A stretch of DNA of 64,000 bases from Candidatus Aegiribacteria sp. GTDB lineage: Bacteria > Fermentibacterota > Fermentibacteria > Fermentibacterales > JCC-6. Every line of letters starts with the position of its first letter. Within the stretch, counting starts at the first letter, position 1. The notes beneath the pieces were generated by a model. It worked only from the letters and a program-made list of their open reading frames with translations, did no database searches and was not told where the DNA came from. The stretch covers positions 1 through 64,000 of the forward strand of contig WTBT01000003.1 in the NCBI GenBank assembly GCA_013138965.1, read 5' to 3'. Made by a program: the position numbers and the translations under genes. Positions 1,804-33,083 of the stretch are shown one piece after another.

Positions 1804-1817
1804 GAGAAGAGGGCATT

Positions 1818-2045
1818 TTGCTTAGTTTTCACTTGCGTGAGGCAATGGATGCTTATGAGGCTAAGACTGGAATACATCTGACATACAATGAATTAAGCCA
1901 GGTAACAGGGATTTCTATGAGCACATTAAAATCCATTGCAACACGAAAACACTACAACACGACTTTAAACAATCTCTCAAGAATTTCTGAAGTCTTGCAT
2001 ATTAATCCCATAAAATACTTAAGTTGGAATCCAAAGAATGAGTAA
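1818..2045 (+). CDS. XRE/Cro-family HTH regulator (R-M controller candidate)
   Basis: A 75-residue protein that is essentially one lambda-repressor-type helix-turn-helix. The central stretch with YNELSQVTGISMSTLKSI reads as the second and third helices, followed by a typical scaffold (LSRISEVLHINPIKYL). It starts at TTG 1818, preceded by AGAAGAGGG. Its 3' end overlaps the start of the downstream nuclease-like gene by 8 bp, so the two are translationally coupled. Size, position and the palindrome in the divergent intergenic region fit a controller (C) protein that delays nuclease expression and represses the methyltransferase. The role is inferred from context. Confidence 0.75.
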   Translation: MLSFHLREAMDAYEAKTGIHLTYNELSQVTGISMSTLKSIATRKHYNTTLNNLSRISEVLHINPIKYLSWNPKNE

Positions 2046-5120: not shown

Positions 5121-5122
5121 CT

Positions 5123-5605: not shown

Positions 5606-5606
5606 T

Positions 5607-6860: not shown

Positions 6861-6871
6861 CACTTCCTCCG

Positions 6872-7447
6872 TTAATCCTTTACCGGGACGATTATTTCCT
6901 GGAGGGCAAGCTTGGGAACATGGTGCCTGTCCTTCGCGTCTCTGTAATATCTGATGCTTCCATCAGCTTTCTCAAGTACGATTTTCTCACCGGGCATGCC
7001 AAGGGCGATTATCAGAAAGGGATGATACCCCTGAGGGGTCCCTGCAGCTTCTTCTATCAGGTTTTCGTCAAAACTCATTATCATGCACGATCCGTAACCG
7101 GATTCCCTGGCAGCAAGCGCTATATACGCGGCAGCAATCCCTGAATCCACGGGAATATGGCGTCTTCCCGCGATCGGGGCATGAATGATTATGTAGGCTG
7201 GAGGTCTTTCACCTTCCTCAGGGCCATTCCAGTCTTCAAGGTAGCCCGCCCATTTCAGCGCGGGGAAAATCCGCGAGCAGTGTTTTTTTTCCGTGACCGG
7301 CGTGAAGCGAAGAAGCTGGAGATTGGCGCCGCAGGGAGCAAGACGGGCTGAATCTATGAAGCGGAGAAGGTCTCTTTCCGATATGCTGATTTCCTGCCTG
7401 AAGCGCCGGATCGACCTGTTCTCCCTCGCGAGTTCATGTATTTCCAT
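6872..7447 (-). CDS. nitroreductase-family flavoprotein
   Basis: A member of the FMN-dependent nitroreductase superfamily, 191 residues from the ATG at 7447. The N-terminal NRSIRRFRQEISI segment and SARLAPCGANLQLLRF form the characteristic FMN phosphate site, and residues near 130-150 (GYGSCMIMSFDE) and LIIALGMPGE complete the fold. The reaction cannot be fixed beyond NAD(P)H-dependent reduction of an organic acceptor. The chosen ATG has GGAG 7 bp upstream; an in-frame TTG seven codons earlier is less likely. It is the first gene of the four-gene minus-strand operon, 11 bp before pepP. Confidence 0.85.
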   Translation of the reverse strand: MEIHELARENRSIRRFRQEISISERDLLRFIDSARLAPCGANLQLLRFTPVTEKKHCSRIFPALKWAGYLEDWNGPEEGERPPAYIIIHAPIAGRRHIPVDSGIAAAYIALAARESGYGSCMIMSFDENLIEEAAGTPQGYHPFLIIALGMPGEKIVLEKADGSIRYYRDAKDRHHVPKLALQEIIVPVKD

Positions 7448-7524
7448 TCGCTCTCCTTCGCTGTTCAACCCGGATTAGATTAAGAATATAGTAATTTGCG
7501 GAGTAACTGCGCGACGGAACAGAA

Positions 7525-7546
7525 GGGGCAGGCCGAAGCCCGCCCC
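7525..7546 (-). terminator. hairpin downstream of hsp20
   Basis: A GC-rich stem of nine positions with one mismatch (GGGGCAGGC against GCCCGCCCC) and a short loop lies 36 bp beyond the hsp20 stop on the minus strand. The following T-tract is weak, so termination may be partial. Confidence 0.5.
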
Positions 7547-7581
7547 TGATTCTGTAACGAAGGCTGGTGAAAAATGCCGGC

Positions 7582-8010
7582 TTAGTCTTCTATCTTTATC
7601 TTCCTGTGAAGGGCTTTCTCTTCCTTGGGAAGAACTATCTTCAGCACTCCGTTTTCGTAAGATGCTTTGGCTTCATCACCATCGACATCTGTGGGAAGAG
7701 TGAACGAGCGAGAAAAACATCCGTACCTGATCTCTCTGCGGTGCCAGGTCTTGTTCTTATTTTCTATCTCCTCCATCTTCTCTCCCCTGATGGCAAGCAC
7801 TCCGTTCGCGATGTCAATTTCAATATCGTCCCTGTTCATGCCTGGAAGCTCGATCATTACCACGATGGTTTCAGCATCTTCGGTTATATCAACCTCGGGA
7901 GCCCATTCACGTTCTCTGTTGAAGACATCGTACTCCGGAGCAATACTCCTGAGAACAACCTCCATAGGGGACAAGTAGCGTCCTCGTCTTCTGCTATCTT
8001 CATTTCTCAC
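7582..8010 (-). CDS. Hsp20/alpha-crystallin small heat-shock protein
   Basis: An ATP-independent holdase chaperone, 142 residues from the GTG at 8010. The alpha-crystallin domain spans about residues 40-135: PEVDITEDAETIVVMIELPG begins it and GVLAIRGEK and ENGVLKIVLPKEE (the conserved A-x-x-x-n-GVL motif) close it. I chose GTG because a strong AAAGGAGG site lies 7 bp upstream; the in-frame ATG at 8028 would place that site inside the coding region. No CIRCE element is visible. A TTTCAT-AA-ATGAAA dyad lies at 8042-8055, about 30 bp upstream of the start, and could be a regulatory site. Confidence 0.93.
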   Translation of the reverse strand: MRNEDSRRRGRYLSPMEVVLRSIAPEYDVFNREREWAPEVDITEDAETIVVMIELPGMNRDDIEIDIANGVLAIRGEKMEEIENKNKTWHRREIRYGCFSRSFTLPTDVDGDEAKASYENGVLKIVLPKEEKALHRKIKIED

Positions 8011-8325
8011 AATACTGCCTCCTTTCATTTGCAGTTAATGCTTTCATAAATGAAATGAGCAAGAGACTTTCCAGAAGAAATGAATCAGTTTATTCATGTT
8101 ATACATATGATTAAAGGCCGGACAGCGGGTAAGTGCATCCGTCCGGTCATTCGCACGAACTTGTTGTGTCATATCGGCGCGGCTGTTACTTTACCGCTAC
8201 ACTGACATCATATTCTTTTCCTTGACCTTAAGCTGTAATGAAAATATTATAGCGGAACGAATTTCCGATTCATATGTTCATACTGACGAAACAGTTAAAA
8301 AATTCCTTTCGCTCTGGAGGTTATT
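8011..8325. other. divergent regulatory interval between hsp20 and the C1 protease
   Basis: No gene. It holds the upstream region of hsp20 (with the dyad TTTCAT-AA-ATGAAA at 8042-8055), an inverted repeat CCGGAC (8118-8123)/GTCCGG (8141-8146) and the protease promoter at 8222-8250. Confidence 0.6.
8222..8250 (+). promoter_or_regulatory. sigma70-like promoter of the C1 protease
   Basis: TTGACC (8222-8227), a 17-bp spacer, then TATTAT (8245-8250), about 75 bp upstream of the protease ATG. Confidence 0.6.
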
Positions 8326-19545: not shown

Positions 19546-22263
19546 ATGAAAAATATGAAGGATGCGAGCAGGGTAGCGGCAAGGCTGGCAACTGCGGTTT
19601 CTTCACAGGAAACCCCCGAGGATCGAGTCGAAGCTCTCGCCAAATTCGTCTCCGGGTATAAATCGAACGAAATCGGCAAAGTTCTGGGTTCGATTATCGT
19701 AGATGCCTGCCAGCGTATTGAGGCCGGTATAACATTCCTTTCATTCATAGACTGGCCTCTCCTTAAAAAAAGCTCTCCGGACTGGGACTGGGGCGGTCTG
19801 GATAGCTGGTTCTCAAAAACGAAACTCGAAGAGGTATGGAACCTTTACAACCACGTTCCTTCAGGTTCAAGAAAATATGTCATAGCAAAGATATCGTTAC
19901 TTATCGAGGTTATTTTCGTGCTTATAGAGGATGATCTTCTCGATCCCGAATCGGATCTGGACTGCACGGGCGCGGACATTGCGCTGACCATACTCAAGGG
20001 GGCGGGAAAAGGTGATCCTACTTTCAGGCTAACTCTCACTTCCTTCCCGGTAGAGTTACGTAAATTCATGAAAGATATTCTTGCCGAATTTGACTTCATT
20101 GAGAAAACTCCCGGAATCTGGCAATTCACTTTCAGTCAGGCGGCTCTGGAGAACTTCGCTTCGGGAAACAATCTCCGGGTTCATATGGGGTCCGGTCAGA
20201 TGTCGTTGGCTGTAGCCCAGAGAAACGCTGAAAACCTTGTGAAAAGGCTTGAACTTCTCGTAAAAGTCCTTCAGATGTTTCCCTCGGGACACCCATCAAT
20301 AGACCCCTCAGCAGAATCCTTTCTTAACACCCTTTCAAAATTTGATAATAAAGATAATGAACAGGTGACTCTTTCGGTAGTGGGTGATACCGTTATGGTT
20401 AACGATATAAGCGTGGCAAGAAAGAACACCAGTATCAGCGGGTTTATCAGAGCTTTCACAGAACGGAATATGAGAAGCCTGACCTTCGATCATAGAGTAA
20501 CAGCTAAAGATGTGAAAACCTTCTCAAGAATATTCAACAGACCCGCCGCATACATTTCGGAACACGGCGGTATGGACAGGCTTCTTGAACTCAGGGGATT
20601 GGATTCCATTACCGTAAACCGATTCCATTACCAGCTTATGTCAGAAGGCGAGGAGGCAGGTCAGACTCTGGCTCGGGGAGAAGTCACCATTGAGGACGCC
20701 ATCTTCTCCGAGCTGATAGACAGGCTTGAAAGGGGAGAAAGCATAGATTCCCTTCCAGGCAGCAAGATCGGTGATGCCCTTAAATCCGTTCTTGCGGCCG
20801 CGAGGGAAAACAGGGAGGAACAGAGAGGGATGATAGCCAGGTTCGTATTTGCCCTTGATCCCACCCTCCTTGAAAAGGGGCTTCTTTCAAACCGTGTAAT
20901 TCAGAGAGGAATGGCATGGAAGGCTGTCCGCAAGATTATAGACAGGCTTCTGGCAAGCCTTCCCTCACCTGACCCTGACACAAGGCACAGGACAGTGGGC
21001 AAGCTGCAGGACATGGCTCTCCTTGCCGTGGAGCGGGGAAAAGAAAACTCGACAATACAGATAATCGAGAATGTCTCCATGCTTCTGAAGCGCGAACAGG
21101 ATCCGGATGTTCTGTACAGGGGGGTAATCCTCACAGCTTCCCTTATGGAAGCGCTTCTTGCCAGGGGTATGATGACTATAGCCCTTGAAGCGGGGAAAAT
21201 TCTTCATAATCTGGAATCGATGCGGTACTCAAGGACTGAACTGGAAGCTGCCAGGAAGCGGTCTCTGGCGGAAGCCCAGAGAAAGATGGATACTATAAAT
21301 GCGGCAGAAGCCCTTGTTCAGAATATACTATCCGATGATGAGATCGTTTCCAGGGAGGCCAGCAACCTTGCGATGATAACTCCCCCGGATAACCTCGTGT
21401 CTCAGCTGGTGAATATTTTTCACGATGACAGCAGAAGGCTCAGATCAAAAGCCTTCCGTATGCTCCTTAAAATGGGCGAAAGAGGGCTCTCTGCAATCCA
21501 TGAAAGACTCACTGAGACAGTAACGGCCTTCAATTCAAAGGTGGGTGGAGGCACCTATCTCCTGCCGGACACGGAATGGTACAAAGCCAGAAACATGATA
21601 CAGGTTCTTCGTGATCTCAGCTCTCCCTCCAGCGAGAACATTCTAGCGGAACTCTGCAAAGTTCCTGATCCAAGGATCAGGCGAGAATGTCTTCTGGCCC
21701 TCACTAAAGTATCCACGACAACGGCGGAAAGCCTTTCTATGTCCCTCATCATTGATAAGTCAAAGGAAGTTGCGGAGATAGCTCTTAACATCCTCACCAA
21801 ACAGGCCATGCGCAATCCGGCTTTCATTCCCAGGATAACTGAGGCCTTCCGCAAAAACAGTGATATCAGAATCGAAATTATGGAGTCATTCAGCATACTT
21901 GGCAAGCACAAAACAGTCATCAGTTTTCTTTCCAGGAGCCTCCAGGATGGTCCTTCCAGCATACTTTTCGAACACCATAACCTTATCTCGGGAGCTTTTC
22001 GAATCATCAACAGATACGGAGGAACCTCCGAGCTCCCTGTACTGGAAAATCTTCTGACTGAAGTGGAGGGAGGTTTCTTCAGGAAGAGTAAGATCGACAA
22101 ATCATTAATTCAGCAGTTAAAGGAGACTATCCAGAACCTGAGGCTTTCAGAAAGTGTGATTGAAAGCGATGTCTCTCCGGAGCCTCCACCTGACAAACCG
22201 CGCAAACCCCCGGAAGATGATGAGATAACCATCCTTGGCCCAGATTTCGGCATAAACGGCTGA
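19546..22263 (+). CDS. large HEAT-repeat-like protein of unknown function
   Basis: A 905-residue soluble protein without signal peptide or membrane segments. I do not recognise a named family. Roughly residues 600-870 are helical pairs resembling HEAT repeats (for example LVNIFHDDSRRLRSKAFRMLLKMG, and PDPRIRRECLLALTKVS, and SKEVAEIALNILTK), which usually mediate protein contacts. Residues about 270-330 (LSVVGDTVMVNDISV, then ISGFIRAFTERNMRSLTF) resemble a beta-rich module that I have seen ahead of HEAT arrays in signalling proteins of delta-proteobacteria and related phyla. The C-terminus is Pro/Asp-rich (SPEPPPDKPRKPPEDDE). The ATG follows GATAGGAGCGGG. It stands alone between the thioesterase and ybaK. 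Confidence 0.7.
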   Translation: MKNMKDASRVAARLATAVSSQETPEDRVEALAKFVSGYKSNEIGKVLGSIIVDACQRIEAGITFLSFIDWPLLKKSSPDWDWGGLDSWFSKTKLEEVWNLYNHVPSGSRKYVIAKISLLIEVIFVLIEDDLLDPESDLDCTGADIALTILKGAGKGDPTFRLTLTSFPVELRKFMKDILAEFDFIEKTPGIWQFTFSQAALENFASGNNLRVHMGSGQMSLAVAQRNAENLVKRLELLVKVLQMFPSGHPSIDPSAESFLNTLSKFDNKDNEQVTLSVVGDTVMVNDISVARKNTSISGFIRAFTERNMRSLTFDHRVTAKDVKTFSRIFNRPAAYISEHGGMDRLLELRGLDSITVNRFHYQLMSEGEEAGQTLARGEVTIEDAIFSELIDRLERGESIDSLPGSKIGDALKSVLAAARENREEQRGMIARFVFALDPTLLEKGLLSNRVIQRGMAWKAVRKIIDRLLASLPSPDPDTRHRTVGKLQDMALLAVERGKENSTIQIIENVSMLLKREQDPDVLYRGVILTASLMEALLARGMMTIALEAGKILHNLESMRYSRTELEAARKRSLAEAQRKMDTINAAEALVQNILSDDEIVSREASNLAMITPPDNLVSQLVNIFHDDSRRLRSKAFRMLLKMGERGLSAIHERLTETVTAFNSKVGGGTYLLPDTEWYKARNMIQVLRDLSSPSSENILAELCKVPDPRIRRECLLALTKVSTTTAESLSMSLIIDKSKEVAEIALNILTKQAMRNPAFIPRITEAFRKNSDIRIEIMESFSILGKHKTVISFLSRSLQDGPSSILFEHHNLISGAFRIINRYGGTSELPVLENLLTEVEGGFFRKSKIDKSLIQQLKETIQNLRLSESVIESDVSPEPPPDKPRKPPEDDEITILGPDFGING

Positions 22264-22570
22264 CAGTCGTCACAGATCGGGCTCATGAATGATTGTGCTC
22301 GACTTGATTCCAATCCCCTAACGCGTAACACAACGTCGCATGAAAGCCATCTATTTATTCCTTGACAGGGCAGGATTATTCTCGGTATTCTTATATCAGG
22401 CTGGAAATACGGTTTGATGGAAAGTACTGCAGGATTTTCAGGGCTACGTTGCCTGATGAAGTAAAATCAAGTTTTCTATCGCTCCGCTTATCGGTTATGA
22501 TGAACTGATGAGCAAGGCTCAACTCGAACCCTGGACGTCCGTACTCCAGGCAGGATAAGGGAGGCTAATC
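22264..22570. other. intergenic region before ybaK
   Basis: No gene seen. A possible promoter (22362-22391) lies in its middle, about 180 bp upstream of the ybaK ATG. I find no strong terminator after the HEAT protein. Confidence 0.5.
22362..22391 (+). promoter_or_regulatory. possible promoter upstream of ybaK
   Basis: TTGACA (22362-22367) and TATTCT (22386-22391) at 18-bp spacing. The distance to the gene implies a long leader, so confidence is low. Confidence 0.3.
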
Positions 22571-23038
22571 ATGCCGGTTGAAAAACTGAGGGACTTCCTC
22601 GATTCGAACGGAGTAAAGTACATTACAATCCGTCACTCCCCTGCGTTCACAGCCCAGGAGATCGCAGCTTCCGCGCATATCAAGGGCAGGGATCTGGCCA
22701 AGACAGTAATGGTCAAGATCGACGGCAAGCTGGCCATGGCTGTCATCCCCGCCCAGCGAATGCTGGACCTCGAGATGCTGAGCAAGGCGGCTGGCGGAAC
22801 GGAGGTTGAGATCGCGGTCGAGAACGAATTCATCGAGGCCTTCCCCGGATGCGAACTCGGCGCCATGCCCCCCTTCGGGAACATCTACGGCATAGATGTG
22901 TTCGTGGCTCTCGAGCTGACGGAGGATGAGGAGATTGCGTTCAACGCGGGTTCCCACAGCGAACTTGTCCAGCTTTCCTACGCCGACTTCGAGTCACTGG
23001 CAATGCCGAAGGTTGCGCCGCTCTCGCGGTCGAACTAG
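22571..23038 (+). CDS. YbaK/ProX-type aminoacyl-tRNA deacylase
   Basis: A 155-residue trans-editing domain that hydrolyses mischarged aminoacyl-tRNA. HSPAFTAQEIAASAHIKGRD is the conserved substrate-pocket helix; LAKTVMVKIDGKLAMAVIPA contains the essential Lys; MPPFGNIYGIDVFVA and FNAGSHSELVQLSYADF complete the fold. It stands alone, not fused to ProRS. Which mischarged tRNA it edits (Cys-tRNA-Pro, Ala-tRNA-Pro or other) cannot be decided. Codons are noticeably more G/C-ending than in the neighbours, which may mean transfer. The start ATG follows AAGGGAGG. Confidence 0.9.
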   Translation: MPVEKLRDFLDSNGVKYITIRHSPAFTAQEIAASAHIKGRDLAKTVMVKIDGKLAMAVIPAQRMLDLEMLSKAAGGTEVEIAVENEFIEAFPGCELGAMPPFGNIYGIDVFVALELTEDEEIAFNAGSHSELVQLSYADFESLAMPKVAPLSRSN

Positions 23039-23088
23039 GCTGTCCGAGAATGCGGCATCGGCATAAGGAACCACATATCTGGATATAA

Positions 23089-23144
23089 TAATAATTGGGG
23101 ACGGAGGTAATTAGAATTTCTGATTACCTCCGTCCCCATTATTT
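23089..23144. repeat. 56-bp palindromic repeat, left copy
   Basis: A nearly perfect hairpin: an arm AATAATTGGGGACGGAGGT plus AAT, a short AT-rich loop, and its complement, with a single bulged T. A second copy at 24517-24572 in the same orientation has only a few differences, all around the loop. Together they bracket one ATPase gene. It resembles REP/MITE-like palindromes mobilised by IS200/RAYT-type transposases, but no transposase is in the window. Confidence 0.85.
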
Positions 23145-23212
23145 ATCATTGTACCCTTGACAGAAGGACACAAATTGCATAATATTTCCTTAGCGAAAGG
23201 AAACATGCAAAA

Positions 23213-24538
23213 ATGCTGGAACAACTGATAGCCGGGTTCCGTGAAAGATCTCTTCCTGAGTTAACTCCCCGGACAATTCGATTCTCTCCTGTAAAGAAGA
23301 TGGCTTCAGTGATAATCGGGATGCGTCGGTCCGGGAAGACGTGCCTGCTGTTTCAGGAGATTCGACGGTTGATTGATTCTGGTGTCGATCCCGGACATAT
23401 CCTCTATCTGAACTTCGAGGATGACAGATTGCAACCTCTTGAATCGGGAATACTCGATCGAGTTCTGGAGGCTTTCTTCAGAATAAATCCCGGTGCCAGA
23501 TCGGGGAAATCGTACCTGTTCTTTGATGAGATCCAGATTGTGGATGGATGGTCCCGCTTCGCGCGGAGGGTGCTGGATACAGAGGAAACCAATCTGTACA
23601 TTACTGGTTCTTCGGCAAGGATGCTCTCAACGGAGGTTGCTACAGAGTTCCGGGGCAGGGGTTATTCTGTGGAAGTGCTTCCATTCAGCTTCAGTGAAGC
23701 CCTGCTTCACAGAGGAATTCAAATACCTCAGAGTACTCCTGGACCCAGACTCAGGTCGAAGCTGGAAGCAGCATTCGATGAATACCTTCGTATTGGTGGC
23801 TTCCCGGATGTCCAGTTCCTGGAAGAATCTCAGAGAATCCAAGTGCTGCAGGATTACGTAGAACTGGTACTTCTAAGAGATATCATCGAACGACACGAAG
23901 TGAGAAACATGCATGCTGTGCGGTATTTTTCGCTTGCTTTGCTCCAATCGTCGGGAACTCTCGTATCTGTTAACAAGCAGGCCAATTACCTGAAAACACT
24001 GGGAATCGCGGTCGGAAAGGATACTCTTTACAGCCTGCTTGATTTTTTCATCGATGCGTTTCTGCTTTTTACTGTCCCGAAGTTTCACAGATCGCTTCGG
24101 GTTCGCGAGTCTAATCCAAGGAAGATCTATGCGGTTGATCCGGGGCTTGCCTTTGCAGTAATGCCTGCCGTAGCATCAAATTTGGGAGCTCGACTTGAGA
24201 CTGCTGTTTATCTTGAGTTGCGCAGACGCCTTCCAACCCGCAGGGAAGGGATGATTTCTTATTATGTGACTGAAGCCGGACATGAAGTGGACTTCGTTGT
24301 GGGAGACACTGTACATGGAGGAGCAACAGAGTTGATTCAGGTCTGTGCCGACATATCCGGGCAAGAAGTCCTTAATCGTGAACTTCGCGCACTCTCTGAG
24401 GCAATGGTGGAACTGGGATTGACAGAGTCGCTGATAATCACCAATCGGTTTCGGGAGAGTATTCCGGTAGAAGGCGGCATAGTCAGCTTTGTTCCTGCAT
24501 GGAACTGGATGCTGTGTAATAATTGGGGACGGAGGTAA
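23213..24538 (+). CDS. AAA_14/DUF4143-type ATPase in a palindrome-bounded cassette
   Basis: A 441-residue ATPase of the AAA_14 plus DUF4143 class common in accessory regions. Walker A is GMRRSGKT (36-43), Walker B is YLFFDEIQ near 101-108, and TGSSARML is the sensor region. The C-terminal DUF4143 part (about 200-400) has the LRDIIERHEVRN and ALLQSSGTLVSVNKQANYL motifs typical of the family; a nuclease-like strand pair HEVDFVVGD and LIQVCADIS lies near 358-385. The function is not established; proteins of this family are suspected of roles in defence or stress. The stop codon and the last codons (N-N-W-G-R-R) lie inside the right palindrome copy. Confidence 0.88.
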   Translation: MLEQLIAGFRERSLPELTPRTIRFSPVKKMASVIIGMRRSGKTCLLFQEIRRLIDSGVDPGHILYLNFEDDRLQPLESGILDRVLEAFFRINPGARSGKSYLFFDEIQIVDGWSRFARRVLDTEETNLYITGSSARMLSTEVATEFRGRGYSVEVLPFSFSEALLHRGIQIPQSTPGPRLRSKLEAAFDEYLRIGGFPDVQFLEESQRIQVLQDYVELVLLRDIIERHEVRNMHAVRYFSLALLQSSGTLVSVNKQANYLKTLGIAVGKDTLYSLLDFFIDAFLLFTVPKFHRSLRVRESNPRKIYAVDPGLAFAVMPAVASNLGARLETAVYLELRRRLPTRREGMISYYVTEAGHEVDFVVGDTVHGGATELIQVCADISGQEVLNRELRALSEAMVELGLTESLIITNRFRESIPVEGGIVSFVPAWNWMLCNNWGRR

Positions 24539-24572
24539 TTAGAAATTCTAATCACCTCCGTCCCCATTATTT
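24517..24572. repeat. 56-bp palindromic repeat, right copy
   Basis: Direct copy of the hairpin at 23089-23144. Its left arm encodes the last six residues and the TAA stop of the ATPase gene, so the repeat supplied or replaced the 3' end of that gene. It could also act as a bidirectional terminator. Confidence 0.85.
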
Positions 24573-24594
24573 CAGTCGACAGTGAAACAATAGT

Positions 24595-24852
24595 TTAGTG
24601 TATCATTATTATAGATTGCTGAAATAGCTTCTTGTTCACATGAGAGAAATTGAGTTGAATAAAGGATGAGTAGCCCGACAATTCCTTGAAATCATCAGGA
24701 TTATGGGCAATATTCATGCTGGAGTTTGGAATTTTACAGGCTCTGCCGTCAGAATACACTAGGAGCGCGTCCGAAGGTCGCAATATGATTTTGCGCTCCG
24801 AAGCTTGAAAAGTATCCAATACGGAGTACCACAATTCCTTTTGCCGGATCAA
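24595..24852 (-). CDS. hypothetical small protein, possibly divergent from the wHTH gene
   Basis: An open frame of 85 codons (starting MIRQKELWYSVLDTF, with KIILRPSDALLVYSDGR and NFSHVNKKLFQQ) in an interval that otherwise lacks a gene. Its start abuts the TTGGT dyads in front of the winged-helix gene, which would make it a divergently controlled partner. I do not recognise a family and composition alone does not prove that it is coding; it could be the remnant of a longer gene. Confidence 0.3.
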   Translation of the reverse strand: MIRQKELWYSVLDTFQASERKIILRPSDALLVYSDGRACKIPNSSMNIAHNPDDFKELSGYSSFIQLNFSHVNKKLFQQSIIMIH

Positions 24853-24857
24853 CTGTA

Positions 24858-24904
24858 TTGGTTATATTACCAATGAAGTTGGTACAGTAACCATATAAAT
24901 TGGT
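24858..24904. promoter_or_regulatory. TTGGT/ACCAA operator cluster
   Basis: A near-perfect dyad TTGGTTATATTACCAA (24858-24873) is followed by an imperfect copy TTGGTACAGTAACC (24879-24892) and a half-site TTGGT (24900-24904), spaced about two helical turns apart, ending 11 bp before the winged-helix gene. Very likely the autoregulatory site of that protein. Confidence 0.6.
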
Positions 24905-24915
24905 AATGAGGGATT

Positions 24916-25248
24916 ATGCTTTTAGGGTCGTTATTCGTCTCGGAGGATGCAGAGAGAGTTCTTCTCTTCCTTACTGCAAGGGGAGAGGGGTATGCAAAAG
25001 AAATCTCTGATTATTACCAGAGAAGTATCTTCGGCATACAAAAGCAGTTGGAGAAGTTTGATGCCGGCGGAGTGCTTATTAGCAGAAAAATCGGAAGAAC
25101 CAGATTATACCGCTTCAACCCGAGATACCCCCTGCTTGATGAGCTGCGGATTCTTCTTAAAAAGGCAATTCAATTTCTTCCTGAGGAGGAAATTAAGAAA
25201 CTGACAATCTACAGGAGCAGACCCAGGCGCAAGGGGAAGACTCTGTGA
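24916..25248 (+). CDS. winged-helix transcriptional regulator of an NTase module
   Basis: A 110-residue ArsR-like winged-helix protein. Helix-turn-helix residues run about 10-60 (SEDAERVLLFLTARGEGYA, KEISDYYQRSIFGIQKQLEKF) and the wing is GVLISRKIGRTRLYRFNP. The C-terminus is helical and basic (RSRPRRKGKTL). It is coupled to the following nucleotidyltransferase-like gene by a GTGA overlap. I recall this pairing as widespread in mobile regions of bacteria and archaea, where it resembles two-gene toxin-antitoxin units. The ATG at 24916 has a GAGGG site upstream. Confidence 0.75.
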   Translation: MLLGSLFVSEDAERVLLFLTARGEGYAKEISDYYQRSIFGIQKQLEKFDAGGVLISRKIGRTRLYRFNPRYPLLDELRILLKKAIQFLPEEEIKKLTIYRSRPRRKGKTL

Positions 25249-25805
25249 AATCTGTTTCAGAGATGAGTCGAATCGAGTTCGCTGCATATGTTGCCACACA
25301 GCTTGAACAAAGTGGAATAGCAGTTGTGCTTAGTGGTGGTTCATGCGTGTCCATATATAGTTCTGACAAGTATGTATCAATGGATCTTGATTTCATCGAG
25401 ACTGGTATTTCATCCAGAAACGCTGTTGCAAGGTGCATGAGGAACATTGGATTTTCAGAAGAAAACCGGTACTTCAAACATCCGGAATCTGAACTTCTAG
25501 TGGACTTTCCGCCTGGACCACTTGGGATAGGGAACGAACCCATTACTGATTTCAATGAAGTGACCACAGTTACAGGAACTCTGCGCATGCTTTCGCCCAC
25601 TGATTGTGTGAAAGACAGGCTGTCATGGTTCTACCATACAGGTGATACTGAGTGCCTCGAGCAGGCGTTTATGGTTACCCTTAGCAACGAGATCGATATT
25701 GAGGAGATCAAGCGCTGGTCTGCAGGCGAAGGTAAAGCCAAAGAATTCAAAAGTTTGAAACACCAGCTTACAGCTTATCAAAAGGGAAGCAATCTTTCTC
25801 AATAG
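25245..25805 (+). CDS. nucleotidyltransferase-fold protein (AbiEii-like candidate toxin)
   Basis: A 186-residue protein starting at GTG in a 4-bp overlap with the winged-helix gene. The nucleotidyltransferase signature is LSGGSCVSIY followed by SMDLDFIE, that is hGGS-x(n)-hDhDh as in AbiEii/MNT-type enzymes; a third acidic strand may be LLVDFPPG. The C-terminal part is helical with a charged tail. The organisation (DNA-binding partner first, NTase second, translationally coupled, preceded by dyad operators) fits a toxin-antitoxin or abortive-infection unit in which the NTase modifies tRNA or protein. Activity is inferred from motifs only. Confidence 0.65.
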   Translation: MKSVSEMSRIEFAAYVATQLEQSGIAVVLSGGSCVSIYSSDKYVSMDLDFIETGISSRNAVARCMRNIGFSEENRYFKHPESELLVDFPPGPLGIGNEPITDFNEVTTVTGTLRMLSPTDCVKDRLSWFYHTGDTECLEQAFMVTLSNEIDIEEIKRWSAGEGKAKEFKSLKHQLTAYQKGSNLSQ

Positions 25806-25933
25806 TTCGATAAGTGTCTACTAAGGGGTGCCGAATTCAGAAATTCCAGTTTCGGCGCACATAGGATTTTGTATCGAAAAAGAAATCCCATACCAAGACG
25901 ATATTCAGCGAACACCCGGAAGAACAGTAATAA

Positions 25934-27307
25934 TCAAGTGATGATAACGTGTTTCCCTGAAATGACTTCAGGATGATTGATATCATCATCAGGAACGAAC
26001 AATCGGTACCTTATGTTCTCTGCATCTGAGAATAGCGGAGTACGTTCCACCTTGTTTCGGAGCTTTCTTATCAGTGGTTCGACCTCATCAGGTGAAACAT
26101 GGAGTTTAGCCTCTCCGATCAGCAGTTCTCCTTTTCTTTCAGAGCTTGCTGATACAATATCCAGTTCGATACCGCGATCTCTTCTTCCTGACCACCAGCC
26201 CGAGGCAGGTCCCCAATGCAATTCATCGATGATCATCCGGGGTACAGTTGCTCTGACAAGATCTTCCCATATGTGACCCAGGAACTGATTCCAGGACGAT
26301 ATGATGGATTTCAGAACAAATTCCTTGCCACCGGATTCAAGCAGAGACATTTCTGGTTCAACAAAACGGAACCAGAAACGAAGAAATGAATCCTTAATAA
26401 TATAGTAACTGAGTTTTGATTTCTGAGGAGACTGCCCGAATGGTATGCGCCGTTCAATATAATCCAGTTCCTGAAGCCTTGAGATGGGTCTCGAGATCGA
26501 TGTAGCCTGCTTACCCAGTCTTCCGGCTATTTCAGATATTCTGTGCGAGCCTCTTCCAATCAATGACAATATGGACAGCGGCTGAACTATGTCTCTCATA
26601 TCATCTTGAAGAAGTCTTTCCGGTTCTCTGTGAAATACTCCCAGCGGGTCCAGAACTGTTTCTAAAACTGCCTGCCACAGGTTATCGTAGTCTGCAGCAA
26701 TCTCCCAATATCTTGGCACCCCACCCCATACTGCCCAGTTATCAAGTGATTGCATCGAGGTTGATGTGTGCAGTGCATCAACCAAATACTCAATATGGAT
26801 AGGAGTGAGTCTGATCAGTTCAGTAGCTCTGCCGTAAAGCGGTGCTGCGGCATCAAGCAGGAGTCCCGTCATCATTCTTTGAGATGATCCGCATACTGCA
26901 AAATGTCTTGTATTCGCATGATCATGGTCAATGTACTTCTGAAGAATTCCGGGTAACTCCGGAGCCTGTTCAACGATCCATGGAAACTCATCAAGCACAA
27001 GAACCGCACCAGAAGGAGCATCACTGCACCATCTCTGAAGCAGTTCATCCCAGCCGGGATATTCTACACTGTCGAATCCAGGCAAAAGTCTTGACATATC
27101 TCTCGCAATTACGGAGAGTTGCACCCTCCGCTCACGTCTTGCTCCGGAATAATAGACATGAGTAGTATCTTTCAGTGCTTCCATAAGGAGCCGTGTTTTC
27201 CCGCACCTTCTTCTACCGTACAGACAGACGAAAGAAGATGATCTTCCATTAAAGGAATTTTCAAGCCTTTTCAGCTCATCGTATCTGTTCAGAAATCTCA
27301 ATCTCAT
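25934..27307 (-). CDS. archaeal-type ATPase with C-terminal DUF234 nuclease-like domain
   Basis: A 457-residue ATPase. It opens with FLNRYDELKRLENSF, the usual start of the Pfam 'ATPase domain, prokaryote' group, then Walker A GRRRCGKT (31-38) and Walker B VLVLDEFPW. Residues about 240-300 form a winged helix (HRISEIAGRLGKQATSISRPISRL), and the last 130 residues match DUF234, a PD-(D/E)XK-like domain, with GIELDIVSAS and ELLIGEAKL giving the D...ExK pattern. This family is abundant in archaea and accessory loci and is of uncertain function; defence-related or DNA-maintenance roles are suspected. Start ATG at 27307 sits just below a perfect dyad. Confidence 0.85.
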   Translation of the reverse strand: MRLRFLNRYDELKRLENSFNGRSSSFVCLYGRRRCGKTRLLMEALKDTTHVYYSGARRERRVQLSVIARDMSRLLPGFDSVEYPGWDELLQRWCSDAPSGAVLVLDEFPWIVEQAPELPGILQKYIDHDHANTRHFAVCGSSQRMMTGLLLDAAAPLYGRATELIRLTPIHIEYLVDALHTSTSMQSLDNWAVWGGVPRYWEIAADYDNLWQAVLETVLDPLGVFHREPERLLQDDMRDIVQPLSILSLIGRGSHRISEIAGRLGKQATSISRPISRLQELDYIERRIPFGQSPQKSKLSYYIIKDSFLRFWFRFVEPEMSLLESGGKEFVLKSIISSWNQFLGHIWEDLVRATVPRMIIDELHWGPASGWWSGRRDRGIELDIVSASSERKGELLIGEAKLHVSPDEVEPLIRKLRNKVERTPLFSDAENIRYRLFVPDDDINHPEVISGKHVIIT

Positions 27308-27324
27308 ATTGCACCCCCTTAGTA

Positions 27325-27345
27325 ATTATGTAGTAGTTACATAAT
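27325..27345. promoter_or_regulatory. dyad upstream of the DUF234 ATPase
   Basis: Perfect 8-bp arms ATTATGTA/TACATAAT separated by 5 bp, 18 bp upstream of the ATPase start codon. This is probably a repressor or activator site for that gene. Confidence 0.5.
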
Positions 27346-27522
27346 GTACCAGCTGCATAATAGCAATGAGTGTATTACTCTTGAGGAGGATTCACTCTCA
27401 ATATGGAGTGAAGTATTTATTCAGATGCTTAATCTTCATAATGCGTCCTGGCCCGAATAAGGTGGCCTGGATTGTCAAGACAGAAAACGGTGTTGTTTAA
27501 GGTGGGATTCTGCCCTGTGTTC

Positions 27523-27571
27523 TCGGCAGCCACGGAGCGGAGGGCGTAGCCCGAAGCGAAGTGGCTGCCGA
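27523..27571. repeat. 11-bp inverted repeat enclosing a GC-rich 27-bp core
   Basis: TCGGCAGCCAC (27523-27533) and its exact complement GTGGCTGCCGA (27561-27571), with a core that contains the smaller inverted repeat GGGC-GTA-GCCC. It could be a structured RNA, a recombination site or the remnant of a mobile element. Confidence 0.55.
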
Positions 27572-27652
27572 ACTCTTTCTGATTCACGCCATTACCTTCA
27601 GTGGTTTATTGCTTTCATGATATAAAATACAATAAGCACTTAATTCAACACA

Positions 27653-27684
27653 GGATTGCAGCGCACCAAGTGCGCTACGAATCC
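27653..27684. repeat. hairpin upstream of higBA
   Basis: Stem AGCGCAC/GTGCGCT with a 3-base loop, extended by outer arms GGATT/AATCC. There is no T-tract after it, so I do not call it a terminator. Confidence 0.5.
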
Positions 27685-27724
27685 TTATTCGTTGGCCGCA
27701 GGAATAGGATGCTCAATTCAAACC

Positions 27725-27753
27725 TTGACAATGCGTAGCCTGTAGGCTACAGT
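27725..27753 (+). promoter_or_regulatory. higBA promoter with embedded operator
   Basis: TTGACA (27725-27730), 17 bp, TACAGT (27748-27753). The dyad GTAGCC-TGTA-GGCTAC (27735-27750) fills the spacer and runs into the -10 box, so a bound repressor would exclude polymerase. The predicted transcription start falls at about 27760, on or next to the toxin start codon. Confidence 0.65.
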
Positions 27754-28050
27754 ATGAATATGATTGAGATTCGCAAAACGGAGAAGTTTGCCAAGTGGAT
27801 TGACAATCTGCGTGACATACATGCACGTGCCCGTGTCCAAGCGAGAATCGAACGTTTTGCCACCGGACATGCAGGAGACACCAAACCGGTGGGCGAAGGG
27901 GTATCAGAGATGCGGATCGACTATGGCCCCGGATACCGAGTCTACTTCAGGAAGCAGGGTCGAGCTGTGATAATACTGCTGGCAGGTGGTGATAAGCGGA
28001 CCCAAAGGAGGGACATTGAGACAGCATTGCGCCTTGCGCGCAACCTATAG
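27754..28050 (+). CDS. higB: RelE/HigB-type toxin
   Basis: A 98-residue ribosome-dependent mRNA interferase candidate of the 'addiction module killer' (HigB/RelE-like) family. IEIRKTEKFAKWIDNLRD opens the fold, ARIERFATGHAGDTKPV is the basic core, and the C-terminal strand block GYRVYFRKQGRAVIILLAGGDKRTQ carries the Arg, Tyr and Lys residues expected around the active site. Two ATGs are possible, 27754 and 27760. The promoter analysis favours the second (MIEIRK) with a leaderless or nearly leaderless mRNA. The antitoxin follows 10 bp downstream. Confidence 0.9.
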   Translation: MNMIEIRKTEKFAKWIDNLRDIHARARVQARIERFATGHAGDTKPVGEGVSEMRIDYGPGYRVYFRKQGRAVIILLAGGDKRTQRRDIETALRLARNL

Positions 28051-28060
28051 GAGGAATGAT

Positions 28061-28360
28061 ATGAACAAGACGAAAACGACTCGATACGATGTGGCCGAAC
28101 ATCTCCGGACACCCGAAGAAATCGCAGCTTATCTGGAAGCAAGTTTTGAAGAGGCAAAAGGAGATGCGTCATTAATAGCAAAAGCACTAGGCGATATCGC
28201 CAGAGCCAAAGGCATGACACAGGTGGCACTTGATGCTGGCCTATCACGAGAAAGTCTATACAAAGCCTTATCGGGTGAACGTACGCCTAGCTTTGACACA
28301 ATCCTTAAAGTTCTTCATGCGCTCGGCATCGAACTGCATGCAACCCCTCTGCATACTTAA
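28061..28360 (+). CDS. higA: HigA-type antitoxin (XRE HTH)
   Basis: A 99-residue antitoxin of the putative addiction-module antidote type. The N-terminal part (VAEHLRTPEEIAAYLEASFEE) is the typical opening, and an HTH covers about residues 45-85 (IARAKGMTQVALDAGL, SRESLYKALSGERTPSFDTILKVL). The start is the ATG with GGAGG 7 bp upstream; longer in-frame extensions run into the toxin gene. It should neutralise HigB and repress the operon by binding the 27735-27750 dyad. Confidence 0.9.
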   Translation: MNKTKTTRYDVAEHLRTPEEIAAYLEASFEEAKGDASLIAKALGDIARAKGMTQVALDAGLSRESLYKALSGERTPSFDTILKVLHALGIELHATPLHT

Positions 28361-28503
28361 TCAGGAAGAGACCAATCATTGTTGACGAGCAGGAACGGCA
28401 GGGTCAAGAGAACAGGGAACAGTAGTAACCGGGTTCACAGGAAATCGGATCCAAAAATCAAGAAAAGCCGTCGTCGAGACGAAAACCGGAAACGTAAACA
28501 GGA

Positions 28504-28842
28504 TCAGAACATAGCAGCAGAGAAGATAGATGCGCCAATCGAGTAGCCGGAGGTTTTTCTCCTCCAGCCCCCCACATATTCTGCCAGCTTTCTATAGCGA
28601 TATTCCATGGAGACTCCCCAGCTTCTTCCTGTCAAAAGGCGTACCCGCCTCTTGAATTCAAGGAAGGCTTTGTCACTCCATCGAATTTTACCTCTTACAA
28701 AGATAAAGCCAAGGTAACTGCACTCACTCACCGGAACCACCTTGCTTTTCTTCTCATTCACCGTAAGCTTGAGCTTACTGACAAGGAAGTGCGTCACACT
28801 TGCCATTACCCGGTTACCAGCAGAAATGCTTCTAACCAGTAT
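28504..28842 (-). pseudogene. group II intron reverse transcriptase fragment (central RT part)
   Basis: Reads as an interior piece of an LtrA-type intron-encoded protein: D-S-I-I-L-V-R-S (the tail of the YADD catalytic box), then VMASVTHFLVSKLKLTVNEK, KSKVVPVSECSYLGFIF, FKRRVRLLTGRSWGVSME and KLAEYVGGW. It breaks off immediately after the GGW motif that would lead into the maturase domain and runs into unrelated sequence to its stop. The N-terminal RT fingers are absent and the first Asp of the catalytic pair is lost at a hairpin junction. Non-functional. Confidence 0.85.
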
Positions 28843-28856
28843 GATGGAATCGGGTA

Positions 28857-28880
28857 GGCGGTAGTTTCACAGCTACCGCC
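28857..28880. repeat. 8-bp hairpin at the intron-fragment junction
   Basis: GGCGGTAG/CTACCGCC with an 8-base loop lies exactly between the two group II intron protein fragments. On the plus strand it is followed by TCGCCTTTTT and could terminate transcription from the higBA side. Confidence 0.6.
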
Positions 28881-29067
28881 TCGCCTTTTTCCGGCTAACT
28901 CCTCTGTTCATCAGTTTCTTCACACGGTACCGAGGCCGTTTCCACTGTCGCCACAGTATGTTACGAAGGTGTCTTCGTATCCACATGTCAAGCTCCTCGA
29001 AAACATTCTTAACTTCGACCAGTGCAAAGTAATTGAACCAACATCTCAGTTTCAGGTTCAAGTCAGC
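28873..29067 (-). pseudogene. group II intron reverse transcriptase fragment (maturase C-terminus)
   Basis: Reads L-N-L-K-L-R-C-W-F-N-Y-F then VKNVFEELDMWIRRHLRNIL, WRQWKRPRYRVKKLMNRGVS, which is the X/maturase domain of an LtrA-type protein (consensus ELDxWIRRxLRxxxWKQWK). It should follow the other fragment in a normal protein, yet it lies upstream of it on the same strand, so the two pieces are in swapped order. A stop precedes it and the DNA-binding/endonuclease tail is missing. Confidence 0.85.
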
Positions 29068-29440
29068 CTACAGTCAGGCATGGAGGGGAAGGGAACGCCG
29101 CCAGGGCATTTTACCGAAAGCACCAACCGAAGAGGAAGCTGCTTTGGGAGCAGGTAGGGGATTGTGGAAAATCCAGTTTCCTATTGCTCGTCTCCGAGTC
29201 GAATGGCGTCCCGAAGACGACGCTCCGCTGCACGAGAGTGGCAACCGGGTAGAGCATCAGAAGAGCGAGAAGCAGAAAAGAATTGAAGCATGTCGGAAAA
29301 GGTCTTATGCTCCCCCCGAGAATCCCTGTCAACTACCGATCGGTCGGGTCTGTACCCGCACGGATTGACCGTGAGTCTTTCCTGTGCTATTTATTCCACA
29401 TTGGTTGTAGTAGTTCAGATTGACTGAGGGGGGAACGGCA
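29068..29440. other. interval between intron fragments and the secreted protein
   Basis: An open frame on the plus strand (29033-29368, rich in Glu/Arg) overlaps the maturase fragment in antisense and has no recognisable motif; I regard it as chance. I could not find a group II intron domain V, so the intron RNA ends are not identifiable. Confidence 0.4.
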
Positions 29441-30124
29441 ATGGTCATGAGGATATTGCTCGCATTGATCCTGTGCGCAAGTTTCGCAGGTGTCGCAATT
29501 GGTCAGGACAACTGGTTCTCGGATGACTTCGAGGATGGCATCATCGATCCTCAGTACTGGGACGTCAACGGTGACATCACAGAATCCGGAGGCTTCCTGA
29601 ATCTCGACAGAGAAGATCCCGCCGACTGGGTTAAAACAGTTTCGGACTACAGCGGTGACTGGGTGATCGAAGTGGACATACGTCTCAATTACATCGTGTT
29701 GAACGACATGTTGCACGGCATCGCAATAGGACCAGAGAACGGTCCCTCGAGCGTGGGGATCATCTTCGGTTACTCCATGTACGGCAAACTGTTCATAGCA
29801 CAGAGATGGGGTAACGGAATCACCACCTTCTCCTACGGACCAGACGGCTCCAATAAGCCAGGCACCTGGCTCCACTGGAAATTCGAGAAAACGGGGGGCT
29901 CCATCACCATCGAGGTCGACGGTCAGCCGGTTCCGGGGATAGGCACAGCGAACATCGCGGAGGGATCGTACGTCTACCTGCCAGGTCTCTACGAAGACGG
30001 AGACGGTCTTCCTCACGTGGGATTCACGTCCTCGACGGTAGACAACTTCTCCATAACCGAGTCGGGAATGGCGCTCGAGATATCGACCTGGGGAGAGCTG
30101 AAGACCCTGTACTACGGGAACTGA
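29441..30124 (+). CDS. secreted LamG/jelly-roll-like protein with TWGELK C-terminal tail
   Basis: A 227-residue exported protein. The start ATG at 29441 follows GAGGGGGGAACG and opens a signal peptide (MVMRILLALILCASFAG, cleavage near IGQ). The mature part begins DNWFSDDFEDGIIDPQYW, a familiar opening of concanavalin-like beta-sandwich (DUF1080/LamG-like) domains, and continues with beta-rich repeats to about residue 200 (DGDGLPHVGFTSSTVDNFSI). The C-terminus ends TWGELKTLYYGN, matching the tail of the otherwise different secreted protein at 60127-60720. Ligand binding, perhaps polysaccharide, is plausible but unproven. G/C-ending codons are more common than in neighbours. Confidence 0.8.
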   Translation: MVMRILLALILCASFAGVAIGQDNWFSDDFEDGIIDPQYWDVNGDITESGGFLNLDREDPADWVKTVSDYSGDWVIEVDIRLNYIVLNDMLHGIAIGPENGPSSVGIIFGYSMYGKLFIAQRWGNGITTFSYGPDGSNKPGTWLHWKFEKTGGSITIEVDGQPVPGIGTANIAEGSYVYLPGLYEDGDGLPHVGFTSSTVDNFSITESGMALEISTWGELKTLYYGN

Positions 30125-30462
30125 TACACAGTAGCATCTGGCGACCCCAACGGGCGAAAGTTCGAACTCCATCTGGGAGTGCCTGACCACCCTTTACAGA
30201 CTACACTGGTCTTCCTTCCGAGAGCACTCGATGCATCTCTGAGGTCAGCTCTCAACCGTGGGTCGGTGATAACAGGTTCCTTGTTCATCGAAAGTCAACG
30301 ATATGCCCCCTCTCAAGTGCTGCAAAGATACATGGAATCCAGCACAATTAATGCAGTTAATCCAATAAGCCAAGTTAATGATCTTGAACTGACTACTTTT
30401 CGTAAGTTGAAGAAATGTGGTACACCCCAGTTGAAGAATAGATCTCTTAGATTAAATCCCTT
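30125..30462. other. non-coding interval downstream of the Fic gene
   Basis: No gene seen; an open frame on the plus strand here has no recognisable motif and runs into the Fic gene in antisense. It contains one copy of the 20-bp repeat (30397-30416) also found twice beyond the other end of the Fic gene. Confidence 0.5.
30397..30416 (+). repeat. 20-bp dispersed repeat, copy 1
   Basis: TTTTCGTAAGTTGAAGAAAT, followed by a G-TAC-CCCC-like extension. Identical to copy 2 (31880-31899). Confidence 0.7.
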
Positions 30463-31593
30463 CTATGAATGTGTTGGCCAAATAAGAGAATAGTTTACGC
30501 TACGGCCTTCACCAGGATTTTTCTGAAGAACACCTTTTTTAAGAAGGTCTGCAATATCTCTTTTCGCGGTTTCCCTTGAGGTTTTTACCATACTCCTGTA
30601 CTTACGATTAGTCAGTCCTCCCCTAAAACCCCCTCGCCCTTTGTCAGAGAGCTTGTTAATAACCTTTTTCTGCCTGGAATTCAGAGAGATTTCAGCTAAA
30701 CTCAGCCAGAGCTCTGCCCTTTCTCCTGCTCTTTCAATCTCACACATTGCTGAAACAAGCGCTCTTTGCATACATGCAAAAAACCAAACCAACCATTCTG
30801 TGATGTCTCCGTTTCCCTTTTGCATTTTCTCAAGAACATCGTAGTACTCTGAGCGTTCAGATAATATCTGCGCCGAAATACTGAAAAATCTTTTTTCCAT
30901 TCGGTCATCCTGAGCTATTGCCATATCGGCAACGGCTCGGGCAATCCGCCCGTTCCCATCCTCAAAAGGATGTATCGTTACAAAGTATAGATGAGTTTGT
31001 GCCGCTCTCACAAGACCATCCATCGTATCCTTTGAGGAGTTGAACCAGTCAAGAAATGAACGCATCTCAGCCTCAAGACGATTCGCAGGAGGCGCCTCAA
31101 AATGTACTGTTTCCTTATCAGGTGGACCGGAAACAACCTGCATCGGCGAAGATCCTTTTCTCCACTCACCAACTACTATCTTTTGGAGGCCGGAATAACC
31201 TGTAGGGAAAAGGGCCGCCTGCCAGCTTTTTAACTTGCTGGAAGTTAGATGAGCCGTATGGTTCTCCGTAGCATCCATAAGTATTTGAACCAGTCCATCA
31301 GCATACCTATCCGGGCTTCCAAGACCTGCGGTTTCCATTCCTAGTCGCCGGGCAATTGAAGACCTCAATCCTCTACGATCCAGATGTGTGTTTTCTATGG
31401 CAGCGGTAGCAATAGCCTCATTCTCAAGCTGCCTGGCAAGGAAATCAAAACCCAGCAAACCTGCTTTTGCAAACACCATTCCCTGGAGTTGTCTGACCCT
31501 TCCCAGAGGTTGAAGAATATCAGTGCTGTTCCAGATCATCTTCGGCCACATGGGTCGTTCCCAGATATACTTGTTCAACTCTCTTCCTCTCAT
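30463..31593 (-). CDS. Fic-family AMPylase with N-terminal inhibitory helix
   Basis: A 376-residue Fic protein (DUF4172-Fic-winged helix), which transfers AMP to target proteins. The N-terminal DUF4172 part opens with YIWERPMWPKMIWN and carries TAAIEN at about residues 63-68, matching the class II inhibitory (S/T)xxxE(G/N) motif that blocks ATP until relieved. The catalytic Fic motif is HPFEDGNGRIAR near residue 208 with the essential His. A C-terminal winged helix (SMVKTSRETAKRDIADLLKKGVL) may bind DNA. I start at ATG 31593 because a consensus promoter overlaps the longer frame. The target is unknown; single Fic genes of this class are often stress- or toxin-like. Confidence 0.92.
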   Translation of the reverse strand: MRGRELNKYIWERPMWPKMIWNSTDILQPLGRVRQLQGMVFAKAGLLGFDFLARQLENEAIATAAIENTHLDRRGLRSSIARRLGMETAGLGSPDRYADGLVQILMDATENHTAHLTSSKLKSWQAALFPTGYSGLQKIVVGEWRKGSSPMQVVSGPPDKETVHFEAPPANRLEAEMRSFLDWFNSSKDTMDGLVRAAQTHLYFVTIHPFEDGNGRIARAVADMAIAQDDRMEKRFFSISAQILSERSEYYDVLEKMQKGNGDITEWLVWFFACMQRALVSAMCEIERAGERAELWLSLAEISLNSRQKKVINKLSDKGRGGFRGGLTNRKYRSMVKTSRETAKRDIADLLKKGVLQKNPGEGRSVNYSLIWPTHS

Positions 31594-31618
31594 TCTGACC
31601 CAATTGACCTTTCTTATT

Positions 31619-31635
31619 GGGTCAGCCACTGACCC
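31619..31635. promoter_or_regulatory. dyad in the fic leader
   Basis: GGGTCA-GCCAC-TGACCC, perfect 6-bp arms, between the fic -10 box and start codon. A likely repressor site, possibly for the Fic protein's own winged helix. Confidence 0.5.
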
Positions 31636-31636
31636 G

Positions 31637-31664
31637 ATTATATGTGCCAAATGGTTCTTGTCAA
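31637..31664 (-). promoter_or_regulatory. fic promoter
   Basis: Perfect TTGACA (31659-31664) and TATAAT (31637-31642) at 16-bp spacing on the minus strand, 43 bp upstream of the ATG at 31593. It is the best sigma70-type match in the window. Confidence 0.75.
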
Positions 31665-31879
31665 GTCATCTTCCTTGCAAATAATCTCGTTCTTTCTTTC
31701 CATCTCAGGATTCGTTCGTCTATCATATGGATTCAGAAACTTCGCAAACTATAGACTGAGAGTCAGAGCCTTATGTACTTGAATTGGATAGGTGCCCCTG
31801 CAGTATCTTCCTTAAACTCGTTTCGGCTCGATCAGGATAAATCCACCCTTGTTGATTCGATGAAGAAAATAGAGCCTTG

Positions 31880-31899
31880 TTTTCGTAAGTTGAAGAAAT
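31880..31899 (+). repeat. 20-bp dispersed repeat, copy 2
   Basis: TTTTCGTAAGTTGAAGAAAT, identical to copy 1; flank reads ACCGCACGACC. Confidence 0.7.
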
Positions 31900-31965
31900 A
31901 CCGCACGACCTGCTATCAATTTTGAAAATATGCGATCCATGTTTTTGCGCTGATAAGGCGGTTTC

Positions 31966-31985
31966 TTTTTGTAAGTTGAAGAAGT
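31966..31985 (+). repeat. 20-bp dispersed repeat, copy 3
   Basis: TTTTTGTAAGTTGAAGAAGT, two substitutions from the other copies; flank GTGTTACGTCCCC resembles the extension after copy 1. Confidence 0.65.
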
Positions 31986-32016
31986 GTGTTACGTCCCCGG
32001 TGTTTCCACTGTTTGC

Positions 32017-32093
32017 TGGTACGCCCGCCAGGATTTGAACCCGGAACCTCCTGGTCCGTAGCCAAGCGCTCTATCCAATTGAGCTACGGGCGC
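32017..32093 (-). tRNA. tRNA-Arg(ACG)
   Basis: A complete cloverleaf on the minus strand: acceptor GCGCCCG/CGGGCGT, D stem GCTC/GAGC, anticodon stem CTTGG/CCAGG with loop CTACGGA (anticodon ACG), T stem CCGGG/CCTGG with loop TTCAAAT, discriminator A and an encoded CCA. It reads CGN codons after A34 is converted to inosine by TadA, encoded at 5123-5605. Confidence 0.97.
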
Positions 32094-32153
32094 ACCGTTT
32101 TCCATGGGTTGGACGACTATTCTAACAAATCAAATGCCCTCCGGTCAAGACGA

Positions 32154-33083
32154 TCAGTTGTAAAGTATTCCGTATTCAAGGATTACCAGATCACCAGGCT
32201 GCAGGCCAAGAAATGAAGAAAAGTTTTCCAGGGGCTGAAAAAGTGCTCCTCGTGGAGTTCTATCAGGATGCGCTATTCTGATTTCAGTATACACATCTGT
32301 CTGGTTGTAGATCTGGAGTGTGCAATCGTACCCGGTCGTATTCTGATGAACGGTTTCAGTTATCTCTATCTCTATTTCCGGTCGAATCCATAGGGTGTCT
32401 CCCGTTCTGAGGGGCCATTCATGTATACTTGTTATCAATTCGCCCGCATGCGGAACAACGCAGGGTACAAGCTGATTCCACTGGGAGTTCACCGGCCATC
32501 CGTAGCTCAGTGTAAGGGGAAGGGCGGAGCCCCCGGCGTTCCACCATCCCAGTTCCATGTCGCCGTTCCTGATCAGCAGCGTATCAGAGACCGTGCATAC
32601 GGGATTTTCTGAAAGATCTTTCATAACTGTTTTCTGTGAGAACCATTCCCTGCCGGTATAGTTGCTGACGATAACCGTAGCCACAAAAAAACAACTATCT
32701 CCATTCACTGTCCAATGATAGCCAGGCTGCCAGGTAATTCCCTCCTGCCAGTACTCAACCAAGGGAATACCGCTGTATGCAGCTGCTGATACTTCGAATG
32801 GAATTTCCGCTTCGGACATTTGTTCAAAGAGTTTGGTGGAATCTTCAGGGTTGCAGATGAATGACAGTCGGCTGATTCCCGACAGATCAGGATATTCCAC
32901 CGTATGGCGGGGAGACGCCCCCTGCCTGAGAACCCCGGCAACCTCCGCGGGCCTGTTCATGTGAAGCGCAAGACCGATAGAATCGAGATAACGTTCCGCG
33001 TATCTTTCCTTTTCGGCACACCCAACAATCATCATAGTTAGCATGAGGGTGGTCACAATCGCCTTCATGGGGTATTTATCCAT
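32154..33083 (-). CDS. hypothetical lipoprotein
   Basis: A protein of about 309 residues from the ATG at 33083 (MDKYPMKAIVTT); a start at 33068 (MKAIV) is equally possible. A lipobox MMIVGC-AEK ends a hydrophobic segment, so Cys is the likely lipid-modified first residue of the mature protein. The rest is beta-rich with several Trp and no recognised domain (TGDTLWIRPEIEIEITE, VYTEIRIAHPD). It is divergent from the ABC transporter pair with only about 25 bp between starts. The function is unknown; an envelope location is inferred. Confidence 0.75.
   Translation of the reverse strand: MDKYPMKAIVTTLMLTMMIVGCAEKERYAERYLDSIGLALHMNRPAEVAGVLRQGASPRHTVEYPDLSGISRLSFICNPEDSTKLFEQMSEAEIPFEVSAAAYSGIPLVEYWQEGITWQPGYHWTVNGDSCFFVATVIVSNYTGREWFSQKTVMKDLSENPVCTVSDTLLIRNGDMELGWWNAGGSALPLTLSYGWPVNSQWNQLVPCVVPHAGELITSIHEWPLRTGDTLWIRPEIEIEITETVHQNTTGYDCTLQIYNQTDVYTEIRIAHPDRTPRGALFQPLENFSSFLGLQPGDLVILEYGILYN

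Follow-up and report, generated by a model that had tools for sequence, protein, structure and literature searches.

The locus lies in the window, a 64,000-nucleotide stretch from Candidatus Aegiribacteria sp., and consists of a single gene between two 56-bp palindromes, neither of them assigned to a strand. The left palindrome (positions 23089 to 23144) starts 51 bp past the stop codon of a tRNA_edit (YbaK-like) gene (22571 to 23038, forward strand), and the right palindrome (24517 to 24572), 1,428 bp farther on from start to start, spans the six final codons and the stop codon of the bracketed gene. The two are 95% identical, and each folds as DNA into a near-perfect hairpin (left, -22.2 kcal/mol, z = -9.4; right, -21.1 kcal/mol, z = -8.5), whereas none of the shuffled versions of either folded equally well; as a sequence, the pair is far beyond chance. 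An earlier note on this DNA had described them as direct copies of a near-perfect hairpin. The hairpins were recovered as described, and the label "direct" is weak because the repeat is self-complementary (the two align at 90% when one is inverted).

The only long open reading frame between the palindromes is an intact AAA_14/DUF4143 ATPase gene of 441 codons (23213 to 24538, forward strand) that matched both domains (AAA_14, E = 5.5e-32; DUF4143, E = 4.2e-19), in agreement with the earlier note, which had placed one such gene between the copies and its end inside the right one. The ATPase matched the PADLOC candidate class PDC-S01, which conveys a class name and not a tested function. A promoter-like TTGACA-17-TAATAT (23157 to 23185, forward strand), a consensus match only, lies between the left palindrome and the ATPase start. 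By the same kind of match, the left palindrome scored as terminator-like on the forward strand, with a 20-pair stem and the tail TTATTTAT, and the right palindrome failed the simple terminator pattern.

Codons 436 to 441 (NNWGRR) and the TAA at 24536 to 24538 lie entirely within the right repeat, with the last base of codon 435 (TGT, 24515 to 24517) also belonging to it. The palindrome and its junction are thus translated as a foreign tail of seven codons, CNNWGRR, followed by TAA (24515 to 24538, forward strand). The 434 residues before this tail can be aligned to homologues. Among tblastn matches to 110 other ATPase records, some of which overlap in locus, residue 434, directly before the repeat, was the commonest alignment end (50 of 111 with the window gene itself included). 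Close homologues terminate right after PAWxWML, the closest with a stop 2 to 3 codons past L434, and the nearest C-termini read PAWSWMLRV* or PAWSWMLGVK*. Neither the NNWGRR tail nor a GGGACGG/CCGTCCC motif near the stop occurred in any of the 110 other records, both being confined to the window gene, and a broad contig scan yielded 80 ATPase relatives from many phyla, none with the motif near the stop. The nearest homologues in related genomes, 60 to 67% identical, likewise have no palindromes at their stops. Since homologues end at PAWxWML and none carries the palindrome tail, this comparison indicates that the repeat overwrote the natural 3′ end of the ATPase gene. Such a capture had been offered in the earlier note, and as no homologue ending in NNWGRR away from a palindrome was found, it stands.

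Both palindromes and the ATPase gene belong to a hypervariable island (about 22264 to 32016-32093, no strand assigned) that extends from a HEAT-repeat gene, kept in 19 of 19 genomes of the genus, to a tRNA-Arg gene. This segment measures 9.7 kb here, approximately 1 kb in G004, 3.6 kb in G010, and 0.6 kb in G007. Genome G013 has a 61% identical ATPase homologue within the corresponding segment, without the motif, and the ATPase insertion was common to none of the relatives in the island comparison. Because the island is not common to the relatives compared, no empty site for either window copy was found among them. We rejected the tRNA_edit gene as an anchor for comparison, its orthologue occurring in one congener only (92% identity), with no palindrome and unrelated flanks. 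The island also holds a RelE-type toxin-antitoxin pair, a Fic-like gene, and DUF4143 and DUF234 ATPases.

A search of the genome and its relatives for the 56-bp element, as the earlier note had advised, revealed a dispersed family. The own genome (G000; 2.9 Mb, 110 contigs) has nine short palindromes, two in the window, two on contig C108, and one each on C37, C93, C54, C49, and C87, the window pair being the sole pair of short copies within 1.5 kb of each other. It also has about eight longer elements of approximately 100 to 115 bp whose outer ends are as in the short palindromes. The strict short form was found in 12 of the 36 genomes of the taxonomic family, including G002 (23 copies), G013 (18), and G015 (16), and yielded 99 short copies with flanks for the analysis of placement. 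The hairpin foot is a variable four-base sequence with A at position -4 in 93 of 98 copies.

Several features of the copies themselves were also observed. Bases outside the core pair copy by copy, with a mean of 2.79 contiguous pairs; shuffling the right flanks lowered this to 1.28 ± 0.17, in a test where related copies among the 99 are not independent. Such pairing might have arisen because longer stems were selected or as a by-product of how copies insert. Nested palindromes at L268, L269, L275, L178, and L248 have extra GGGACGG layers beyond the core hairpin, as might result if copies grew via repeated insertion or template switching. One and the same site may hold the long element or the short palindrome depending on the species (G000 C37:14150, C41, C64, and C76 versus loci in G008, G011, G015, and G002), which suggests turnover between the two forms.

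The family is associated with a RAYT-type Y1 transposase. PF01797 matches above the cut-off were found in the own genome, with the cognate Y1/RAYT gene at C13:32528-33190 (Y1_Tnp, 54 bits, above the cut-off; NF047646 REP_Tyr_transpos, 63 bits, below the cut-off of 80). Its locus is conserved and adjoins an ABC transporter gene. The RAYT gene lies between two full palindromes 761 to 762 bp apart in G002, G013, and G015, and between inverted GGGGACGG ends in G001 and G035 (another genus); in G000 and G008 a GGGACGGAGG end precedes it, only the upstream end being seen. The palindrome-richest genomes, G002, G013, and G015, are those with the closest RAYTs. A close RAYT was not found in G010 (assembly 73% complete) or G011 (61%), though both have palindromes. 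The suggestions of a REP/MITE-type palindrome and of a Y1/RAYT transposase to be sought were thereby borne out. The repeat would be transposed by this RAYT, of whose action we found no direct sign.

With the palindromes as its ends, palindrome-ATPase-palindrome might be moved by the RAYT as one unit, much as the earlier note had envisaged in a cassette mobilized by an IS200/RAYT-type transposase. That the RAYT gene itself lies between two palindromes in three species shows a gene between two copies to be a real arrangement, and 10 other close palindrome pairs exist. However, neither the own genome nor its 35 relatives contained a second palindrome-ATPase-palindrome unit, the 36 genomes contained no second close copy of the ATPase, and its nearest homologues, as noted above, end without palindromes. 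The RAYT-palindrome unit was itself seen at a single conserved locus only, and therefore no movement as a unit was seen even for the RAYT. At the DUF1028 locus, moreover, the gene order is stable with one or both palindromes, one empty site included (G013 C73 versus G015 C114). Identical cargo bounded by both ends at multiple sites, the mark of a composite transposon, was not observed, the copies are mostly single, and the surroundings of the ATPase are a variable island. We consider movement of the ATPase as such a unit improbable and did not retain this part of the earlier proposal.

The placement of the copies offers a simpler account of the bracketing. By simple, uncurated ORF calls, 74 of the 99 copies sit no farther than 30 bp from the 3′ end of a gene, 25 overlap a stop codon, and 21 give proteins a DGGN tail; a further property of the set is that 12 copies abut tRNA 3′ ends. 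After orthologous copies were merged into about 30 slots, some tRNA slots probably being fused through similar flanks, 15 slots were convergent, 12 tandem, and 3 divergent, against 28/53/31 among baseline gaps (Fisher p = 0.013 for convergent). The earlier note had held that single copies occurring genome-wide in many orientations, with no genes bounded, would make the flanking a coincidence. This largely applies: copies are mostly single and sit mainly at gene 3′ ends. They also cluster: 13 pairs lie no more than 1.5 kb apart, where uniform placement would predict 0.7; 3 of these pairs are RAYT units and several others are orthologous to one another. Because copies favor gene 3′ ends and tend to cluster, the bracketing of the ATPase gene is explained without any cassette; because they cluster beyond random expectation, the two window insertions may not be independent.

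At the EndoI locus, the gene g329 is enclosed by a pair of short palindromes in G002 and by a pair of long elements in G008; G013, G011, G015, and G000 lack it and retain a single element. Such precise presence and absence between elements implies that recombination between copies probably occurs, and one may ask whether homologous recombination between paired palindromes can remove or introduce single genes, leaving one palindrome. The outgroup G001, however, has the order g292-g329-EndoI with no strict palindromes, which argues that g329 is ancestral, that deletion suffices, and that loss between repeats is likelier than transposition of a cassette. Since G002 and G008 group as sisters in the tree of the HEAT protein, g329 was either lost several times or lost once and regained once. 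For the ATPase, no site lacking the gene with one palindrome left was found among relatives. We thus regard recombination at the EndoI locus most simply as deletion, and find it unlikely that exchange placed the ATPase in the window. It is equally doubtful that RAYT-spread gene-end palindromes make single genes exchangeable modules, with host recombination between neighboring copies deleting or swapping the enclosed gene; if they did, genes would turn over much as in an integron, but with no integrase involved.

The arrangement, a single gene for each palindrome and a stop codon that falls within the right copy, also resembles an integron cassette, in which the palindromes would be attC sites recombined by an integron integrase, and the own genome encodes one (TIGR02249, 359 bits, cut-off 265, C72:7263-8183). 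The spacers beside that integrase, however, have attC-like ends (ACCTAAC...GTTATAC and GTCTAAC...GTTAGGT) unlike GGGACGGAGG, and the palindromes occur behind tRNA genes and between convergent genes as well. A simple attC scan of window positions 21000 to 33000 gave zero matches, a weak result given that it also missed the C72 sites. We rejected attC identity for the palindromes, as RYYYAAC...GTTRRRY ends are absent from the listed repeats and the C72 spacers differ; this origin is hardly credible. On C72 itself (L360, positions 1 to 8189), a gene row that includes, by eye, SIR2-like and NUDIX-like ORFs points away from the integrase, with attC-like spacers.

We therefore favor, with a probability of roughly 0.8, the reading that RAYT-linked, TIRtron-like repeats prefer gene 3′ ends and that the window pair represents two separate insertions, not transposition of the ATPase. 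The palindromes would represent the ends of a RAYT-type (Y1, HUH) transposase unit, copied in nonautonomous form, and would settle at gene 3′ ends, on or just past the stop codon or a tRNA 3′ end. One copy would have inserted downstream of the tRNA_edit gene and the other, presumably independently, on the stop codon of the ATPase, the one that gives this gene seven added residues and a new stop. The hairpins, with their flanking A/T tracts, probably serve to terminate transcription. Where two copies are in direct order, recombination could also delete the gene between them and leave one copy, a pattern seen at the EndoI locus and not at the ATPase. In this bacterial lineage, RAYT-linked palindromes hit gene 3′ ends so frequently that protein C-termini are rewritten, whereby a DGGN tail has become common to many unrelated proteins, and gene-end palindromes also set genes up for loss between repeats. 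As a caution, a palindrome pair around a gene does not amount to a transposable cassette unless the genome-wide pattern has been checked.

The palindrome translated as protein recalls the Rickettsia RPE and other intragenic palindromes (described in PMC3733652), but here the final codons and the stop are taken over, with no in-frame insert within the gene. As with GTAG/CGTC REPs and REPtrons (PMC3733652, PMC6006769), small palindromes lie downstream of genes, often less than 20 bp from 3′ ends, and supply stops; 3′-end bias and stop-codon supply are already published for REPs (PMC3733652). Unlike these, the 99 copies listed have no GTAG/CGTC tag at the hairpin foot, which is a variable four-base sequence with A outermost, and copies per genome are few. 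The family is close to the published TIRtrons, or TIRYT genes (PMC3733652), a kind already known. These likewise have a RAYT-like Y1 transposase with inverted repeats on both sides that are not GTAG REPs, repeat copies dispersed away from the transposase, ends starting with GGGG, and some self-complementary repeats; our genomes match them in the Y1/HUH gene, the dispersed copies, and the transposase flanked on both sides (G002, G013, G015, G001, and G035). The ends here, GGGGACGG, are off at one position from the published GGGGWSAS, a motif reported for some TIRs only and so not strictly defining (PMC3733652). In further contrast to TIRtrons, the RAYT of three species is bordered by full palindromes in place of such ends, and a longer and a shorter form occupy equivalent sites in different species.
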